Positions 10,867 through 58,840 of a DNA stretch of 64,000 bases are shown here, one piece after another. The notes below the pieces were generated by a model, which did no database searches, was not told where the DNA came from, and worked only from the letters and a program-made list of their open reading frames with translations. The stretch is from a virus, in the IMG/VR virus record IMGVR_UViG_3300028859_000011, positions 61,547 to 125,546 of that record. The stretch is one strand, 5' to 3'. The position numbers and the translations under genes are program-made. The stretch's first letter is position 1, and each line of letters begins with the position of its first letter.

Positions 10867-11817
10867 ATGAAAAAACAATTGATTTTAGTATGTGTGCTTG
10901 TAGTATCATTAATGTCATCCTGTATGAAACCTTATCAAAAGCAGAAAATCGTTGAGGTTAAACCTAACGAAACAGCTTACCTTATTCCATTGGAGAATGG
11001 AACTCAAACTAATCAAACTAAATTAAAATCTCAGGATTATTTGGAAAAGAACAAAGTAGTTGCAAAACGAATTTACATTCCTACACAATGGCAAAAAACT
11101 GGTAGAGGTAATAATTCTGGTTATTGGATGCCTTCTGATACAGTTATTATTGTAAATAGAACTCCTGTTACACGTGAATGGAATCAAGCAGGTGGAGGTT
11201 CGAATAAAACTTCAAATGATGCAATTAAAGTAGAGTCTAGAGAATCAATCGGATTTGAAGTTTGTATAACTGCAACTGCATCAATTCCAGAAGAATGGGC
11301 TACATTATTCTTATATTCTTATAGTGGAAGATCTTTATCAGATTTGATGGATAGTGATGTTCGAGCATATGTTCAAACTTGCTTAACTACAGCATTTGGA
11401 GATAGAACGTTAACACAAGGACAAAATGAACGAAGTGTAGTATTTTCTCAAATGGCTAAAGATGTATCTGCACATTTTGCCTTATATGGTATTAAAATTA
11501 TGAATATTGGTTCTGCTGGACAATTCTCATATGAAAATAAAGCTATTCAAGATGCTATTGATGAAAAATATTCTTCTGAAATGAATATACAAACTGCTCA
11601 GAATAAAGTAATTTCAGCCAATAAGTTTGCACAAGCAAAAGCAGCTATTGAAGCTCAGAGTCATCTTGATGCAGATATTGCAATTAAATTAGCATTTGCT
11701 GATGCACTTAAAAATGGTAAACTTCAAGTGCCAAGTACAATCGCTGGTGGAAATTTCTCACTTCTTGAATTGTATGGCTTAACTAGTATGAGTAACACAT
11801 CAAAAACAAAACGATAA
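10867..11817 (+). CDS. SPFH/band-7 (prohibitin-like) lipoprotein
   Basis: 316 residues. A lipoprotein signal peptide is clear: MKKQ, a hydrophobic core, and the lipobox LMSSC with Cys19. The body resembles SPFH/band-7 proteins: VKPNETAYLIPLENGT early in the domain, and a C-terminal Ala/Gln-rich helix (NIQTAQNKVISANKFAQAKA). SPFH proteins assemble into ring or cage-like membrane scaffolds. A phage copy anchored in the host envelope could affect membrane integrity or exclude other phages; that is inference. It overlaps the next gene by one base (TAATG). Confidence 0.8.
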   Translation: MKKQLILVCVLVVSLMSSCMKPYQKQKIVEVKPNETAYLIPLENGTQTNQTKLKSQDYLEKNKVVAKRIYIPTQWQKTGRGNNSGYWMPSDTVIIVNRTPVTREWNQAGGGSNKTSNDAIKVESRESIGFEVCITATASIPEEWATLFLYSYSGRSLSDLMDSDVRAYVQTCLTTAFGDRTLTQGQNERSVVFSQMAKDVSAHFALYGIKIMNIGSAGQFSYENKAIQDAIDEKYSSEMNIQTAQNKVISANKFAQAKAAIEAQSHLDADIAIKLAFADALKNGKLQVPSTIAGGNFSLLELYGLTSMSNTSKTKR

Positions 11818-12327: not shown

Positions 12328-12531
12328 ATGCAAATAGATTTTAGAAAAAATAAGAATTTTGGTGATCATGGAGACGTAAGATTAATAACTAAATTTTTAT
12401 GGTACCCATTAATTTTAAAAGGTAGAATGATTTGGATGGAAACCGCAACAATTCAACAAATATGTTTTACTAATCCTTCATATTTATATACCAAAACATT
12501 TTGGATTAATGACTGCTTTGTAAAACAATAA
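12328..12531 (+). CDS. Unknown protein, 67 residues
   Basis: Contains an FGDHGDVRLITKF segment and is unusually rich in aromatic residues for this genome. No family recognised. Second frame after the promoter at 12186. Confidence 0.55.
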   Translation: MQIDFRKNKNFGDHGDVRLITKFLWYPLILKGRMIWMETATIQQICFTNPSYLYTKTFWINDCFVKQ

Positions 12532-14366: not shown

Positions 14367-14398
14367 TTTGGTGAATTGAAAACTTTTCCGTACTTTTG
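14367..14398 (+). promoter_or_regulatory. Bacteroidota-type promoter of the leucine-tRNA operon
   Basis: TTTGGTG begins at 14367 and TACTTTTG (a TAnnTTTG box) lies at 14391-14398, with a 20-bp gap. Transcription would start about 50 bases before the leader peptide. Confidence 0.8.
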
Positions 14399-14452
14399 TA
14401 CTACATAATAAAAATAGAAAAAAATCATATTTTTTAAAGAATATATACTGAT

Positions 14453-14545
14453 ATGAAAAACTACAATAACATAATGAACTTGCTACTCTTAAACCTATTA
14501 TTACAAAATAATCGGACTGAGAGTACTATGTCATATCTATTGTAA
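14453..14545 (+). CDS. Leucine-rich leader peptide, 30 residues
   Basis: ATG to TAA frame with nine Leu in 30 residues, seven of them in the block LLLLNLLL. The Leu codons are TTG, CTA, CTC, TTA, CTA, TTA and TTA in the block, then CTA and TTG at the end. These nearly match the codons read by the tRNAs encoded just downstream. It lies between the promoter and an intrinsic terminator that precedes the tRNA genes, which is the arrangement of the leader peptides of amino-acid operons such as leu, ilv and his. A shorter start at 14474 is possible. The likely role is to sense charged tRNA-Leu, not to make a working protein. Confidence 0.75.
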   Translation: MKNYNNIMNLLLLNLLLQNNRTESTMSYLL

Positions 14546-14602
14546 CAAATAATATAAGCATATTAAAAAGACCTCAGTCATTTATTTGATTGAGGTTTTT
14601 CT
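14484..14602 (+). promoter_or_regulatory. Transcription attenuator with alternative stems
   Basis: Four segments can pair in the classical alternative way. Segment 1 (TACTCTTA, 14484-14491, inside the Leu codons) pairs with segment 2 (TGAGAGTA, 14518-14525). Segment 2 extended upstream (GACTGAG, 14515-14521) pairs perfectly with segment 3 (CTCAGTC, 14573-14579). Segment 3 (14571-14580) pairs with segment 4 (14587-14596) to form the terminator. A ribosome stalled at Leu codons would cover segment 1, free segment 2 to pair with 3, and let transcription reach the tRNAs. Confidence 0.65.
14571..14602 (+). terminator. Intrinsic terminator between leader peptide and tRNAs
   Basis: A ten-bp stem (ACCTCAGTCA, loop TTTATT, TGATTGAGGT, one G-T pair) followed by a T-rich tract (14596-14605). 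It stands before the tRNA genes it would switch off, so it is an attenuator and not the operon's end. Confidence 0.85.
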
Positions 14603-14615
14603 TTTATAATAAAAT

Positions 14616-14701
14616 GCTCTGGTGGTGAAACTGGCGAAACACGATACTTTTAAAAAGTATTACATTAAGAAACAATGCGGGTCCGAATCCCGCTCAGAGT
14701 A
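14616..14701 (+). tRNA. trnL: tRNA-Leu (anticodon TAA)
   Basis: Class II cloverleaf: acceptor GCTCTGG with TCAGAGT, a leucine-like D arm (TGGTGAAACTGGC), anticodon stem ATACT/AGTAT with loop TTTAAAA (anticodon TAA, reads UUA), a long variable arm, and T arm GCGGG/CCCGC with loop TCCGAAT. CCA is not encoded. First of five tRNA genes. Confidence 0.9.
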
Positions 14702-14709
14702 CAAAAAAT

Positions 14710-14792
14710 GTTCCTGTGATGAAATTGGTAGTACATAAATTTCTTAAAAGAATTTGCCCACTGGCGTGTCGGTTCGAGTCCGACCAGGAATA
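14710..14792 (+). tRNA. trnL: tRNA-Leu (anticodon TAA), second copy type
   Basis: Class II cloverleaf: acceptor GTTCCTG with CAGGAAT, anticodon loop CTTAAAA (TAA, reads UUA), a long variable arm, and T arm GTCGG/CCGAC with loop TTCGAGT. The body differs clearly from the first tRNA, so this is not a recent duplication. Confidence 0.85.
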
Positions 14793-14803
14793 CAATAAAA
14801 CAT

Positions 14804-14889
14804 GCTGATGTGGCGGAATGAATACGCGGCAGTCTAAGAAACTGTTTCTGAACAAAGTAAGAATGTGGGTTCAAGTCCCACCATCAGTA
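14804..14889 (+). tRNA. trnL: tRNA-Leu (anticodon AAG)
   Basis: Class II cloverleaf: acceptor GCTGATG with CATCAGT, anticodon stem GCAGT/ACTGT with loop CTAAGAA (anticodon AAG, reads CUU), a long variable arm, and T arm GTGGG/CCCAC. An A in the wobble position is rare in bacterial leucine tRNAs, and the D loop lacks the usual GG. Confidence 0.75.
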
Positions 14890-14896
14890 CAATAAT

Positions 14897-14970
14897 GACT
14901 GAGTGATGTAATTGGTAACCATGTCATCCTCAAAAGGTGAATTTTGTGGGTTCGACTCCCATCTCAGTTA
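14897..14970 (+). tRNA. Class I tRNA with anticodon CAA (leucine codon UUG)
   Basis: 74-base cloverleaf: acceptor GACTGAG with CTCAGTT, D loop with TTGGTA, anticodon stem TCATC/GGTGA with loop CTCAAAA (CAA), a short variable loop, and T arm with loop TTCGACT. CAA reads the leucine codon UUG, but the short variable arm is not that of a bacterial tRNA-Leu. Identity is therefore given by anticodon only. Confidence 0.75.
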
Positions 14971-14978
14971 CAATACAT

Positions 14979-15068
14979 GTTCCAGTGGCGAAACTTGGTT
15001 GAGACGCGTTAGATTTAGGATCTAATACAGTTAATGACACACTGCGGGTCCAAATCCCGCCTGGAATA
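14979..15068 (+). tRNA. trnL: tRNA-Leu (anticodon TAG)
   Basis: Class II cloverleaf: acceptor GTTCCAG with CTGGAAT, anticodon stem TTAGA/TCTAA with loop TTTAGGA (anticodon TAG, reads CUA), a long variable arm, and T arm GCGGG/CCCGC. It is not an amber suppressor, which would need anticodon CTA. Confidence 0.9.
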
Positions 15069-15070
15069 CA

Positions 15071-15115
15071 AAGTGTGAGCCAATTTTATTAAAAAAATTG
15101 ACTCACACTTTTTTA
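15071..15115 (+). terminator. Terminator of the tRNA operon
   Basis: A 17-bp stem with one C-A mismatch (15071-15087 with 15094-15110) followed by a short T run. It starts two bases after the last tRNA discriminator base. Confidence 0.85.
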
Positions 15116-15136: not shown

Positions 15137-16075
15137 ATGAATAAATATAATAAAGAAAAATTTGAAGAAGTTATTAAAAAATCATTTTCTTATTCAAGCA
15201 CTTGCAAGAATATTGGATTAGTGCCAGTAGGAGGAAATATTCTCACAGTAAAAAAATATATTAAATTATATAATATAAACATTGATCATTTTACTGGGCA
15301 AGGATGGAATTTTGGAGATAATTATAAGCAAACAAAAAATGCTATACCATTAAATGACATATTAGATGGTTTGCATCCATCATATGGCACAACTCATTTA
15401 AAGAAAAGATTAATTAAAGATAGACTAAAAGAAAATAGATGTGAAGAATGCGGGTTGACAGAATGGAATAATATGCCAATTGCTTTACAATTACATCATA
15501 AAGATGGTGATAGTACAAATCATAAATTTGAAAATTTAAAAATATTATGTCCAAATTGTCACACACAAACAGATACATATGGATCTAAAAATAAAGGAAC
15601 AGAGAAAACATATGATAAGATACAATTATTGGAATCTATTTCCAATTCCAAAAATTACAGTGAAGTCAAAATAAAAATAGGATTAAAAAGAGGAGGTGAT
15701 AATAATGTAATAAAAAATATCATGTTTGAATATGATATAAATTTTAATGACAGTGAAAAAATAAAAAGTATAATTTTAGAAGAAAAAGAATTAATAGAAA
15801 AAGAATTAATAGAAAAAGAAGAAATTCAAAATAAATCAACAAAAAAAATTAAAATTAGAAAAAAATATCCATCAATAAAAAATATTTGCTCATGCGGCAA
15901 AGAAATTCAAACCAGATCAAATCAGTGCAATGAGTGTTATAGATTATCTGAAAGAAAAGTAATGAACAGACCAACTAAAGATGAATTAAGATTAATGATA
16001 TCTGATACAAGTTTAGAAGCTGTTGGTAGAGTTTATGGTGTGACTGGCAATACAGTTAAGAAGTGGCTAAAATAA
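15137..16075 (+). CDS. HNH homing-type endonuclease
   Basis: 312 residues. The HNH motif is complete near residues 98-142: CEECG, then LQLHHKDGDSTNHKFENL, then CPNCHTQT, so a zinc-stabilised HNH nuclease that cuts DNA. The C-terminus adds a four-cysteine site (CSCGKEIQTRSNQCNEC) and a helix-turn-helix-like end (SLEAVGRVYGVTGNTVKKWL), the modular make-up of free-standing homing endonucleases. It sits directly after the tRNA terminator and is followed by a broken tRNA end, which suggests it moved into the tRNA cluster. Confidence 0.85.
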   Translation: MNKYNKEKFEEVIKKSFSYSSTCKNIGLVPVGGNILTVKKYIKLYNINIDHFTGQGWNFGDNYKQTKNAIPLNDILDGLHPSYGTTHLKKRLIKDRLKENRCEECGLTEWNNMPIALQLHHKDGDSTNHKFENLKILCPNCHTQTDTYGSKNKGTEKTYDKIQLLESISNSKNYSEVKIKIGLKRGGDNNVIKNIMFEYDINFNDSEKIKSIILEEKELIEKELIEKEEIQNKSTKKIKIRKKYPSIKNICSCGKEIQTRSNQCNECYRLSERKVMNRPTKDELRLMISDTSLEAVGRVYGVTGNTVKKWLK

Positions 16076-16670: not shown

Positions 16671-17036
16671 TTATATTTTTTTGCATGTATTTTTAGTTTG
16701 AATATCGTCATATATATCATCAAATGATATAGCTAAAAAATCATCAACTGATAGCATATTTTGCATGTAATCTATTCCATCACCCCAACCTCTTGTAGAA
16801 ACAGAACTGATAGATATTGAATATTCTGAATATTTTGAAACCTCAACAATTATTGCATAATAGCCTGGAGTTTTAACATTCCTTCTTATAGTATGTTCGT
16901 CATTATAACTTAGATTATATGTTTTGAGTTTATCAATAAGTTGTTCTGTTTGTTCGTCTGTTATGCCTTCAATATTTATTGCAAATCTGAATTTATTTTT
17001 AGAACTTTCATTAATGAATTGATTATATTTTTTCAT
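16671..17036 (-). CDS. Capsid-tag family protein, 121 residues
   Basis: Starts MKKYNQFINESS, the N-terminal tag of this block, with a likely protease cut after INE. The body (FRFAINIEGITDEQTEQLIDK, later VSTRGWGDGIDYMQN) is clearly related to the protein at 17422-17856 (FRFAVDITNITDDQIDKLFD, TTPRWGAGYTYMEC). It lacks the KFN C-terminal tag. Its start overlaps the stop of the upstream gene (ATGA). Confidence 0.75.
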   Translation of the reverse strand: MKKYNQFINESSKNKFRFAINIEGITDEQTEQLIDKLKTYNLSYNDEHTIRRNVKTPGYYAIIVEVSKYSEYSISISSVSTRGWGDGIDYMQNMLSVDDFLAISFDDIYDDIQTKNTCKKI

Positions 17037-17425
17037 AGGTTAAATTTATTTGCGTCATTTTTTAATTTAAAATAATTTTCAACTCCATCTAATCCAACCA
17101 ACAAAAATTCTTCTAATGATATTAAATTTACTTTTACTGAACTACCGAAATCTATACCTGAAATTTTAATATAATTAGTATTATTTATATCATAATACAA
17201 TGATATCTCCTATGAATATTTTGTTGATATTAAAAATTCTTCATTCCAAGAATATAATTTAACATGTTTTTTTATTTCATTTATTGCGGATTTTTTCTTA
17301 TCAATTGTATTATTTGTACTTTTATCAATAACAAATGTAATATTAGGCTCTGATTCAGGTATCATATCTTTACTATCAATTAATATGTAATTATTTTCAT
17401 TAATGAATTGGTTATATTTTTTCAT
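17033..17425 (-). pseudogene. Capsid-tag family gene with an in-frame amber codon
   Basis: The frame opens at 17425 with MKKYNQFINENN and meets TAG at 17210-17212 after 71 codons. The same frame runs on for 58 more codons to TGA at 17033-17035. The continuation contains NLISLEEFLLVGLDGVENYF and ends KNDANKFNL, matching the ends of its intact paralogues (LIISLDNFLIIGLEGVETLY, KKDANKFNL). Read through, the protein would be about 130 residues with both tags. It is either a fresh nonsense mutation, a leaky stop or a sequence error. No amber-suppressor tRNA is in the window. Confidence 0.65.
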
Positions 17426-17856
17426 ATATTAAATTTATTTGCATCTTTTTTCATGTTGATAATTTCTTCTTTTGCTTTGACAAGTTCTTCAGCTCCTTCA
17501 AATCCAACTTTAAAGAATTCATCTAACGATAATATACATTCCATATAAGTATATCCTGCTCCCCAACGTGGTGTTGTAACTGTTGATATATCTATTCTAC
17601 AACGATTAAAATAATCAGTAATCTCGAATCCTAAAGCCCAAGGAAAGAAAGAATTACTTCCAAAAATATCCTTTTTGTATCTAAGACTCAATAATTCTGA
17701 TTTTCCAAATTCTGAATATTCATCATAATTTACAGATTTTTTGTAAATCATATCAAATAATTTATCAATTTGATCATCTGTGATATTTGTTATATCAACA
17801 GCAAATCTGAATTTATCAGAAATACTTTCATTGATGAATTGTTTATATTTTTTCAT
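17422..17856 (-). CDS. Capsid-tag family protein with both tags, 144 residues
   Basis: N-terminal tag MKKYKQFINES (cut expected after INE) and C-terminal tag KKDANKFNI. The body is paralogous to 16671-17036; the shared parts are the N-terminal strand and helix and the R-W-G-x-G segment. The start overlaps the upstream stop by four bases, as in the whole block. Probable internal head protein; no enzymatic motif seen. Confidence 0.75.
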   Translation of the reverse strand: MKKYKQFINESISDKFRFAVDITNITDDQIDKLFDMIYKKSVNYDEYSEFGKSELLSLRYKKDIFGSNSFFPWALGFEITDYFNRCRIDISTVTTPRWGAGYTYMECILSLDEFFKVGFEGAEELVKAKEEIINMKKDANKFNI

Positions 17857-18293
17857 AGGTTAAATTTATTTGCATCTTTCTTAATTTTATAAAGTGTTTC
17901 AACTCCTTCTAATCCAATTATAAGGAAATTATCTAATGAAATTATAAGGTTATTCTCACCTCTCATCTCATCAGATCTCAGTTTTAAAAAATCTATTGTA
18001 TCTCTTGGTATTGCAGAATTGCCCCAACTTTCATATACTTGAATATACCATACCCAGTAATTATTTTTATCTACTGAGAAACGTTTCCAATCAGTATCAT
18101 TATCTCTAATTAATAAACTTTTTATATTGTGAGTTTCTAATGTCACATATTTTCTAAATTCATCAAATGCTTCTTGTTGTCTTTTTTCATCTGCATCTTC
18201 CAATGATATGAAAAATTTAAAATCCATATTATTGGATGCATAATTTTCTCCATATGCTCTATTTTCGTTAATAAATTCTTTATATTTTTTCAT
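17853..18293 (-). CDS. Capsid-tag family protein with both tags, 146 residues
   Basis: Starts MKKYKEFINENRAYGEN and ends IKKDANKFNL. The C-terminal third (LIISLDNFLIIGLEGVETLY) matches the family consensus. The middle is rich in Asp, Arg and aromatic residues without a known motif. Coupled by four-base overlaps to the genes on both sides. Confidence 0.75.
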   Translation of the reverse strand: MKKYKEFINENRAYGENYASNNMDFKFFISLEDADEKRQQEAFDEFRKYVTLETHNIKSLLIRDNDTDWKRFSVDKNNYWVWYIQVYESWGNSAIPRDTIDFLKLRSDEMRGENNLIISLDNFLIIGLEGVETLYKIKKDANKFNL

Positions 18294-56987: not shown

Positions 56988-57066
56988 TTATATAGATATT
57001 ATTTTTTGTTGAATTTAATTTAATAAAAATAGAAAAAAATGATATTTTTCTATTAATATATACATT

Positions 57067-57663
57067 ATGTTTTATAAATTACGAGATTACGCTAAAAAAT
57101 TTAATGTCTGTTACAGGACTGCCTGGAATAGATTTAATAAAGGATTAATAACTGGAGCATTTAAGGACGAAATGGGTAACATTTTAATTCCAGTTAAAGA
57201 AATGGATCATAATAAAAATATTAACGTGGCTTTATATGCTAGAGTATCAAACAATTCAGCAAAGGAAAATCTTAATAGACAAATAGAAAAAATAGAAGAT
57301 TTTTCCATAAAAAATGGATATATAATAAAATATAAAGTGACTGAAATTGCATCAGGTATGAACGATACTAGACATAAATTATGTAAATTATTGTCTAAAG
57401 ATGATTGGGATATACTTATAGTTGAAAATAAAGATAGATTAACCAGATTTGGCTTTAATTATATAGAATTATTATTAAACTTAAACGGTAAAGAAATTAT
57501 AGTAATAAATCAAACTAATAAAGATAAAGACACTAAACAAGATTTAATATCGGACCTTGTTAGTATAGTTTATTCCTTTACTGCCAGAATATACGGATTA
57601 AGAAAAGGACGAGATAAAGGAAAGCAATTAAAAAATATAATAACAGATAATGTACCTGACTGA
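57067..57663 (+). CDS. tnpA: IS607-family serine recombinase
   Basis: 198 residues. N-terminal MerR-like helix-turn-helix (YKLRDYAKKFNVCYRTAWNR), then the serine resolvase catalytic domain with YARVSNN and nucleophile Ser61, and VENKDRLTRFGFNYIELLL, the conserved D-R-L-x-R active-site helix. It catalyses excision and insertion through a covalent phosphoserine link with little target preference. Length is normal for the family, and it looks intact. Confidence 0.92.
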   Translation: MFYKLRDYAKKFNVCYRTAWNRFNKGLITGAFKDEMGNILIPVKEMDHNKNINVALYARVSNNSAKENLNRQIEKIEDFSIKNGYIIKYKVTEIASGMNDTRHKLCKLLSKDDWDILIVENKDRLTRFGFNYIELLLNLNGKEIIVINQTNKDKDTKQDLISDLVSIVYSFTARIYGLRKGRDKGKQLKNIITDNVPD

Positions 57664-58840
57664 AATACATAATATAAAGAAAACAAATAAATTATATAAA
57701 GAAATAGATGATCTGTGTTTTTTGTCTAAAAACTTATATAACTCATGCCTTTATTCAGTTAGGCAATACTATTTTATCAATAAATTATACCTTAATTATA
57801 ATGCTGTAAATCGTATTTTTATTGATACTAATCAACCAGATTATATTAAATTACCAAGAAAGGTTTCTAATCATGTTTTACAACAAGTAGATAAGTCTTT
57901 TAAATCATTCTTTAAATTACTTAAGATTAAAGATAAATTAAATGGTAAGCCTAAAATACCTTATTATAAACATAAAACTAATGGCCGTAATATATTATCA
58001 TATGAATTAGGTGCTATTTCACACAAAGAATATCTGAATGGTTATATAAAACTATCAGGTACTAATATTATAATACCTTTTATAAATAAAGATAGAGGAA
58101 AATTAAAAGAAGCAAGGATAATTCCTTGTTTGAATTCATATAAGATAGAAATAATATATGAAGTCACTGAAAAAGAATTGATGATAAATGATAATAAAAT
58201 AGCTATTGATCTTGGAATTAATAATTTATGTGCAGTAACTAATAATATTAATGAAGAATATTTTATAATCAATGGTAAACCATTAAAATCAATAAATCAG
58301 TATTATAATAAAATGCTTGCAAAATATAAAAGTGATTTACCAAAGAATATTTATACATCTAATAAAATAAGGAAATTAACGAATAAGAGAAATGATAAGA
58401 TAAATTGTGAAATTCACAAGGTCACAAAATATCTTGTGAGCTGGTGTGAGGAGCACAACGTATCAAATATTATAATTGGATATAATAAAGAGTGGAAAAA
58501 TGAATGTAATATGGGTAAGAAAAACAATCAAAAGTTTATTCAAATACCATACCTTGATCTATTAAATACATTAAAGTATAAAGCAAGGTTAGTAGGAATA
58601 GATATAATATTGACGGAAGAATCTTTTACCAGTAAATGTTCGTTTTTTGATCATGAAGAGATGAAACATCATAATAATTATCTCGGAAAAAGAATTCATA
58701 GAGGACAGTTTAAAACAAACGAAGGATTTAAAATTAACGCAGATATGAATGGATCATTAAATATATTTAAAAAAGTAGTTCCCGAATTTATTGAAGGGAA
58801 TAGAGGGTTCGCAGTCAACCCAAGAAAAGTCACGTTATAG
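57650..58840 (+). CDS. tnpB: IS607-associated TnpB nuclease
   Basis: 396 residues. RuvC-I Asp187 (IAIDLGIN) and RuvC-III Asp365 (INADMNGSLNI) are present. The usual E-D-L of RuvC-II is replaced by IIGYNKEWKNECNMGKKNNQ, and a Glu pair in TEESFTSKCSFF (323-324) may supply the acidic residue, as in the TnpB group with a rearranged active site. The zinc ribbon is reduced to a single Cys. It resembles the TnpB branch common in IS607 elements. The start overlaps tnpA. Confidence 0.85.
   Translation: MYLTEIHNIKKTNKLYKEIDDLCFLSKNLYNSCLYSVRQYYFINKLYLNYNAVNRIFIDTNQPDYIKLPRKVSNHVLQQVDKSFKSFFKLLKIKDKLNGKPKIPYYKHKTNGRNILSYELGAISHKEYLNGYIKLSGTNIIIPFINKDRGKLKEARIIPCLNSYKIEIIYEVTEKELMINDNKIAIDLGINNLCAVTNNINEEYFIINGKPLKSINQYYNKMLAKYKSDLPKNIYTSNKIRKLTNKRNDKINCEIHKVTKYLVSWCEEHNVSNIIIGYNKEWKNECNMGKKNNQKFIQIPYLDLLNTLKYKARLVGIDIILTEESFTSKCSFFDHEEMKHHNNYLGKRIHRGQFKTNEGFKINADMNGSLNIFKKVVPEFIEGNRGFAVNPRKVTL

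Follow-up and report, generated by a model that had tools for sequence, protein, structure and literature searches.

A putative leucine attenuator ahead of a phage tRNA operon and similar leaders across a huge-phage lineage

The leucine leader and its tRNA genes

The window, that is, the whole stretch of 64,000 nucleotides analyzed here, comes from a phage with a GC content of 22-23% that encodes ClpB, a DnaJ-like protein, an NAD-dependent ligase, SbcC, and many HNH genes. Five tRNA-Leu genes, located at 14616-15069, are the sole tRNAs in the 125.5-kb record of this phage. A promoter, a leucine-rich leader open reading frame (ORF), and an intrinsic terminator precede them (Table 1). An earlier note on this DNA had described the promoter, a 30-codon leader with nine Leu codons, the terminator, and the five tRNA-Leu genes, and all of them are found in place. 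The nine leader codons (TTG CTA CTC TTA, CTA TTA TTA, and CTA TTG) can all be read by the operon's own five tRNAs. The promoter fits TAnnTTTG, which is the -7 box consensus in flavobacteria (PMC9723704), and transcription is predicted to start near 14403. It lies after the end of the upstream gene and before the leader. The probable terminator at the end of the operon was not scored in the terminator scan because its loop is too long for the scan.

Table 1. Features of the leucine element and tRNA operon (positions in the window)
Feature	Position	Strand	Basis
Promoter, Bacteroidota type: TTTG (14367-14370), 20 nt, TACTTTTG (14391-14398)	14367-14398	+	sequence; consensus; conservation
Leader ORF, 30 codons, 9 Leu, MKNYNNIMNLLLLNLLLQNNRTESTMSYLL	14453-14545	+	homologous Leu leaders in G001, L185, G014; translation inferred
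Regulatory Leu run, TTG CTA CTC TTA AAC CTA TTA TTA	14480-14503	+	sequence
Segment 1, TACTCTTA, partner of segment 2 (pause hairpin)	14484-14491	+	folding; weakly kept in relatives
Segment 2, TGAGAGTA for pairing with 1; GACTGAG for pairing with 3 (antiterminator)	14515-14525	+	
Intrinsic terminator, 3:4 hairpin (14 bp) then T run	14567-14600	+	folding; covariation
Segment 3, CTCAGTC, partner of 2 (antiterminator) or 4 (terminator)	14570-14580	+	
tRNA-Leu UAA	14616-14702	+	
tRNA-Leu UAA	14710-14793	+	
tRNA-Leu AAG	14804-14890	+	
tRNA-Leu CAA (75 nt)	14897-14971	+	
tRNA-Leu UAG	14979-15069	+	
Probable operon-end terminator, AAGTGTGAG ... CTCACACTTTTTT	about 15070-15115	+	read directly from sequence

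Four segments of the leader region can form the hairpins 1:2, 2:3, and 3:4, which are mutually exclusive; the pairings proposed in the earlier note were recovered base for base. When compared with dinucleotide shuffles, the 3:4 terminator folds at -18.3 kcal/mol (z -6.2), the 1:2 hairpin at -14.4 kcal/mol (z -2.4), and the 2:3 hairpin at -13.6 kcal/mol (z -2.5). The 2:3 duplex is also better than those obtained with a shuffled upstream region (z -3.7, p 0.003). Segment 2 is located within the last codons of the leader ORF. In an Rfam search over the region, only tRNA models reached the gathering score, and neither a T-box nor any other known leader family was found.

Several other features of this DNA were observed. 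Bacterial tRNA-Leu normally possesses a long variable arm. The tRNA-Leu genes at 14897-14971 of the window and at 11329-11402, 12411-12485, and 12581-12653 of contig L178 (anticodons CAA, UAG, and UAA) are only 73-75 nt, a length insufficient for such an arm, and may be fitted to phage LeuRS. Related HNH endonuclease genes sit beside or inside tRNA arrays in three phages (window 15137-16075; L178 11478-12242, minus strand; and L016, which is LR756502, at about 403.2 kb), as homing elements would. Over 43 bases, positions 57021-57063 of the window match the Leu leader's 5' untranslated region (14406-14448) at 88% identity, and the ORF pair just 3' of them, at 57067-58840, has by eye the look of an IS607-type recombinase and TnpB. 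At 16671-18293, small tandem paralogous proteins all share the N-terminus MKKYKQFINE.

Conservation of the leucine element in relatives

Relatives of the phage were recruited through its SbcC-like and DNA ligase proteins; a tblastn search with a 368-aa protein gave no phage match. Records L005-L010 are 99.98-100% identical to the window, represent the same phage, and were excluded from the evidence. By protein, the closest named relatives are uncultured phages with genomes of 634-735 kb, and these look like the huge genomes of PMC7162821, in which the largest members were predicted to replicate in Bacteroidetes. The window phage and its huge relatives probably infect Bacteroidota as well, as inferred from promoter type and kin; the host itself is not known.

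The 2-3-4 stem pattern was found in 13 stretches over all of IMG/VR, 9 of which carry the Leu leader. These nine comprise three contigs of the window's own phage and six contigs of three other leader types (G001, one type in four contigs, and G014). In every Leu-leader stretch scanned for tRNAs, only tRNA-Leu was present. The remaining four matches have neither the leader nor tRNA-Leu (L192 and L189-L191; four or five, depending on whether the identical contigs L189 and L190 are counted once). The same pattern gave 32 matches in GTDB genomes, none with a tRNA-Leu within 1.5 kb. This search ruled out a bacterial origin of this Leu element.

In the two closer leader types, the leader is nearly constant while the tRNAs differ. 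In G001, whose ligase shares 77% amino acid identity with that of the window, the promoter, leader, and terminator are kept, the leader almost unchanged, and the tRNA-Leu genes behind them differ. The leader is likewise nearly unchanged in the four-contig type. The promoter is also kept in L180, L185, L187, and L188. More distantly, G014 has the leader MKNNINTLVLLLNNLLLQSNRTGRVIQMC followed by seven tRNA-Leu genes, with an HNH gene within the array, and then LeuRS. Two further contigs were found through relatives of the G014 LeuRS. In L214, the leader MNNILHNNLLNLLLLLGIIGLGVLC precedes tRNA-Leu genes and LeuRS, so that the cassette runs into the LeuRS gene in two relatives. In L215, a Leu/Arg leader lies ahead of a mixed array of Leu and Arg tRNAs, and a second leader, MKTKNTLLLLLKE, stands with its own terminator directly before LeuRS. 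The leucine-rich frame and terminator that the earlier note proposed to search for ahead of tRNA-Leu genes in related phages do occur there (G001, the four-contig type, G014, and L214), and the Leu codons are conserved.

In the distant relatives, the Leu leader is retained and segments 2, 3, and 4 change together, in the triplets GACTGAG/CTCAGTC/GAYTGAG, GACTGGG/CCCAGTC/GACTGGG, and GATTGGG/CCCAATC/GATTGGG. Both alternative helices survive these changes. Fully in register, double changes occur at two pairs of 2:3 and three pairs of 3:4, in an alignment of four distinct rows. The register was set by hand: because MAFFT misaligned the distant terminators, the segments were excised and aligned by eye. 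Conservation is poorest for the 1:2 pairing, which shows a C.A mismatch in two of the close types and a bulge in G014. The paired changes that the earlier note proposed to look for are seen in 2:3 and 3:4 as triple compensatory changes. The 1:2 hairpin, which would free the terminator without translation, is present in the window and imperfect in relatives.

Leaders before tRNA arrays and synthetase genes

The earlier note concerned leucine only. This scope proved too narrow, since in the huge relatives the majority of tRNA operons, and a number of synthetase genes as well, are headed by elements of this design that specify other amino acids. The tRNA regions of LR756501, LR756502, LR745206, and the IMG/VR records G004-G013 were scanned with a rule blind to amino acid identity, namely an intrinsic terminator and, a short distance upstream, the stop of an ORF that starts with ATG. 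The first three look like the genomes of the largest phages in PMC7162821. A leader ORF was required to have at least 14 codons and a stop 15-38 nt before the stem, and a terminator was taken as tRNA-proximal if a tRNA lay within 150 nt downstream. Such an ORF is present at 53 of 54 distinct tRNA-proximal terminators and at 48 of 210 others (Fisher 4e-26; the sequences are related and less independent than they appear), and some of the latter 48 are synthetase leaders. The distance from leader stop to stem has a median of 24 nt (interquartile range 21-28).

The residues of these leaders correspond to the tRNAs behind them. Leader HKHFSKSNKWFS lies ahead of His, Phe, Lys, and Trp tRNAs; SSSSSSRSS ahead of Arg and Ser; SYYYEE ahead of Glu and Tyr; ISIAIIAGGAG ahead of Ile and Gly; QQQQQQQ ahead of Gln; NPQPQ..DQDP ahead of Asp and Pro; NLSLRSLLLRE ahead of Leu and Arg; and NLNMNLTLNVVNITLC ahead of Asn, Leu, Val, Ile, and Thr tRNAs. 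When leaders were shuffled among arrays (one leader per cluster, 12 clusters, 20,000 permutations), the match gave z 5.4 with p at its floor of 5e-5, which was reached in 20 of 20 draws; 30 of 31 isotypes occur in the leader of their own array, where 19.2 +/- 2.5 would be expected. A chance ORF was ruled out by this permutation and by the ORF counts above. As a hold-out, six new contigs were found by the HKFW leader alone, an earlier HKHFSK search pattern having been dropped as too degenerate. Five of the six reach far enough, and all five have that tRNA set next; one contig found in this way, L367, shows three matching leader/array pairs consecutively. A leader before Met/Gln tRNAs 270 nt away (L193) is a weak candidate.

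The match extends to codons. In arrays with tRNA-Arg UCU, the Arg codons of the leader are AGA in 11 of 14 cases, and in arrays with tRNA-Arg ACG they are CGN in 17 of 21 (AGR versus CGN, p 0.001). Ile leader codons are ATA in 16 of 23 cases in UAU arrays and ATY in 11 of 14 in GAU arrays (p 0.007). Both p values are too small because homologous leaders are not independent; several unrelated leader families, however, agree on the match. Since leader codons follow the isoacceptor encoded, what is sensed is suggested to be the supply of individual charged isoacceptors and not of leucine in general, and the inference points to feedback by the operon's own tRNAs.

The antiterminator is less uniform. 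Of 57 leaders, 53% have a 2:3 duplex that is better than shuffles at p<=0.05. Mutually exclusive 2:3 pairing with compensatory change is found in the Leu and HKFW families and is weaker in the Ser and Ile/Gly families. For the Ser/Arg and Ile/Gly families, the duplex is not clearly above shuffles (mean z -1.0 and -0.6), and another, unmodelled structure may be used.

Synthetase genes, too, have leaders immediately ahead of them that encode the matching amino acid: IIII before IleRS (two phages), VVVV and VVVNV before ValRS-like genes (that of L263 assigned by signature sequence only), LLLL, LLLPL, and LLLLL before LeuRS, NNRN before AsnRS, and DD before AspRS (three phages), the last being the weakest cases with two aspartates only. 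QQQQQ precedes tRNA-Gln and GlnRS. At 11057-12959 of L206, an HFHFHF leader is followed by a short HisRS-like protein and then by a PheS-related ligase above the cut-off for NF051887, "PheS-related mystery ligase SrmL"; judging from the leader, the substrate of this ligase in that phage may be phenylalanine. A leader 246 nt from a HisRS-like gene in L231 is a weak candidate. The class I synthetases of these phages are short (LeuRS 421-541 aa, ValRS 509, and IleRS about 740; L178 9775-11307, L276 1510-2772, L274 1465-2991, and L261 1426-3633), which is consistent with loss of their editing domains.

The pattern is absent from LR756508 (W04, 26 tRNAs), Lak-A1, Agrobacterium phage Atu_ph07, Sphingomonas phage PAU, Tenacibaculum phage pT24, and Bacteroides phage SJC03; where these phages were read, their tRNAs are not grouped by amino acid and lack leaders of this kind. 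Because of this absence, and because the GTDB stem matches are never near tRNA-Leu, the design appears to belong to huge phages of a single lineage or of a few lineages. The window comes from a member whose partial record shows the Leu cassette and no other. In phage pT24 (L347 1521, about 191.5 kb), ARAGORN called a CUA (amber) Pyl-type tRNA beside two tRNA-Ile UAU.

Attenuation as the proposed mechanism

The leucine element is very probably a ribosome-mediated transcription attenuator, in which a leader peptide senses charged tRNA-Leu and controls the phage tRNA-Leu operon, and it would be one of a set of switches across the huge-phage lineage; the support from sequence is strong, and no expression, ribosome-stalling, or termination data are available. 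When charged tRNA-Leu is plentiful for the leader codons, the ribosome would complete the leader, either it or segment 1 would cover segment 2, and the 3:4 terminator would form and end transcription short of the tRNA genes. If charged tRNA-Leu runs low, the ribosome would stall in the Leu run, on segment 1, leaving segment 2 to pair with 3, so that the terminator is blocked and the tRNAs are transcribed. Once charged, the new tRNAs would read the leader codons and close the switch, a feedback loop. Similar switches, each with its own amino acids, would control cassettes of tRNAs and aminoacyl-tRNA synthetases across the lineage. The anatomy, the conservation, the match of leader residues to tRNA isotype or synthetase, and the compensatory changes are observed; stalling, read-through, the sensed signal, and the feedback are inferred, without transcription, stalling, or leucine-response data. 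Within these bounds, the leucine attenuation proposed in the earlier note is supported by the conserved Leu codons and 2:3/3:4 stems and by relatives with varied tRNA-Leu sets, two of them with LeuRS.

A ribosome stalled by any cause would yield the identical RNA switch, and the leader might thus be a general sensor of ribosome activity or an arrest peptide, responding to drugs, collisions, or the nascent chain instead of a lack of charged tRNA. Conservation also extends to the latter half of the Leu leader (QNNRT). Neither a general sensor nor an arrest peptide, however, would need a leader residue that varies with the downstream tRNA or synthetase in many independent cassettes, and the tracking of isoacceptors by leader codons also opposes a general sensor; we consider this explanation very unlikely. 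Even less credit is given to a terminator that merely ends the upstream transcript, with an incidental ORF and tRNAs expressed from their own constitutive promoter. Short ORFs are common in such an AT-rich genome, and some stand before terminators that are not tRNA-proximal, but their near-universal presence at the tRNA-proximal ones, the residue-isotype match, the constancy of the leader while tRNAs change, and the consensus promoter between the upstream gene and the leader are all at odds with an incidental frame.

T-box riboswitches and protein antiterminators control synthetase operons in Firmicutes, and a T-box-like element or antiterminator reading uncharged tRNA directly might be imagined here. 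The Rfam result and the Leu-rich ORF, for which a T-box would have no need, leave this the most improbable of the explanations weighed. A broader form is likely, if less secure than the Leu case, in which a lineage of huge phages would run a genome-wide, isoacceptor-resolved set of such attenuators: tRNA genes are sorted into operons by amino acid set, each leader spells that set, and synthetases have leaders of their own, so that each cassette would be activated when the very charged tRNAs that it provides run short and silenced by what it makes.

Ribosome-mediated attenuators of amino acid operons are represented by the trp, his, leu, ilv, and thr leaders of enterobacteria. The phage elements share with them a short ORF in which the regulated residue is abundant, a terminator hairpin with a competing antiterminator, and a stop just before the terminator. 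In the phages, too, the downstream genes act on the leader's amino acids, but they are tRNA and synthetase genes and not biosynthesis genes; moreover, several phage leaders encode sets of 3-7 amino acids that correspond to the mixed tRNAs of the array, with codons that follow the isoacceptor. In E. coli, pheST is controlled by an attenuator with the leader pheM. Leader-peptide attenuation of a synthetase gene is thus common to both, but pheST is bacterial, its leader concerns a single amino acid, and its operon has no tRNA genes. A Leu-rich attenuator is known for S. aureus ilv-leu (PMC5794164), and attenuator candidates lie ahead of amino acid operons in Flavobacterium psychrophilum (PMC9723704). 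The tRNAs and synthetases of huge phages were described by Al-Shayeb et al. 2020 (PMC7162821), in whose text "attenuat" and "leader" do not occur and cis-control of these genes is not described. Full-text literature searches, with most subscription journals and preprints outside their scope, returned attenuation in bacterial biosynthesis operons, including those of flavobacteria, and none for phage tRNA or synthetase genes, in agreement with the earlier note, which knew of no phage tRNA operon so controlled. The mechanism is known in kind; what appears to be new is where it is used and its form, which is multi-residue and matched to isoacceptors. As far as these searches show, this would be the first leader-peptide attenuator reported for phage tRNA genes.

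Why phages carry tRNAs, and whether these are regulated, is an open question, and the attenuation reading makes it directly testable because, on that reading, the codons of each leader state what that leader measures. The leaders would also offer a route, from sequence alone, to predict the substrates of phage synthetases and to locate tRNA operons. If the attenuation reading holds, these phages do not produce tRNAs by default; they would gauge which charged isoacceptors the cell lacks, possibly through depletion, starvation, or a tRNA-cutting defence, and supply those.
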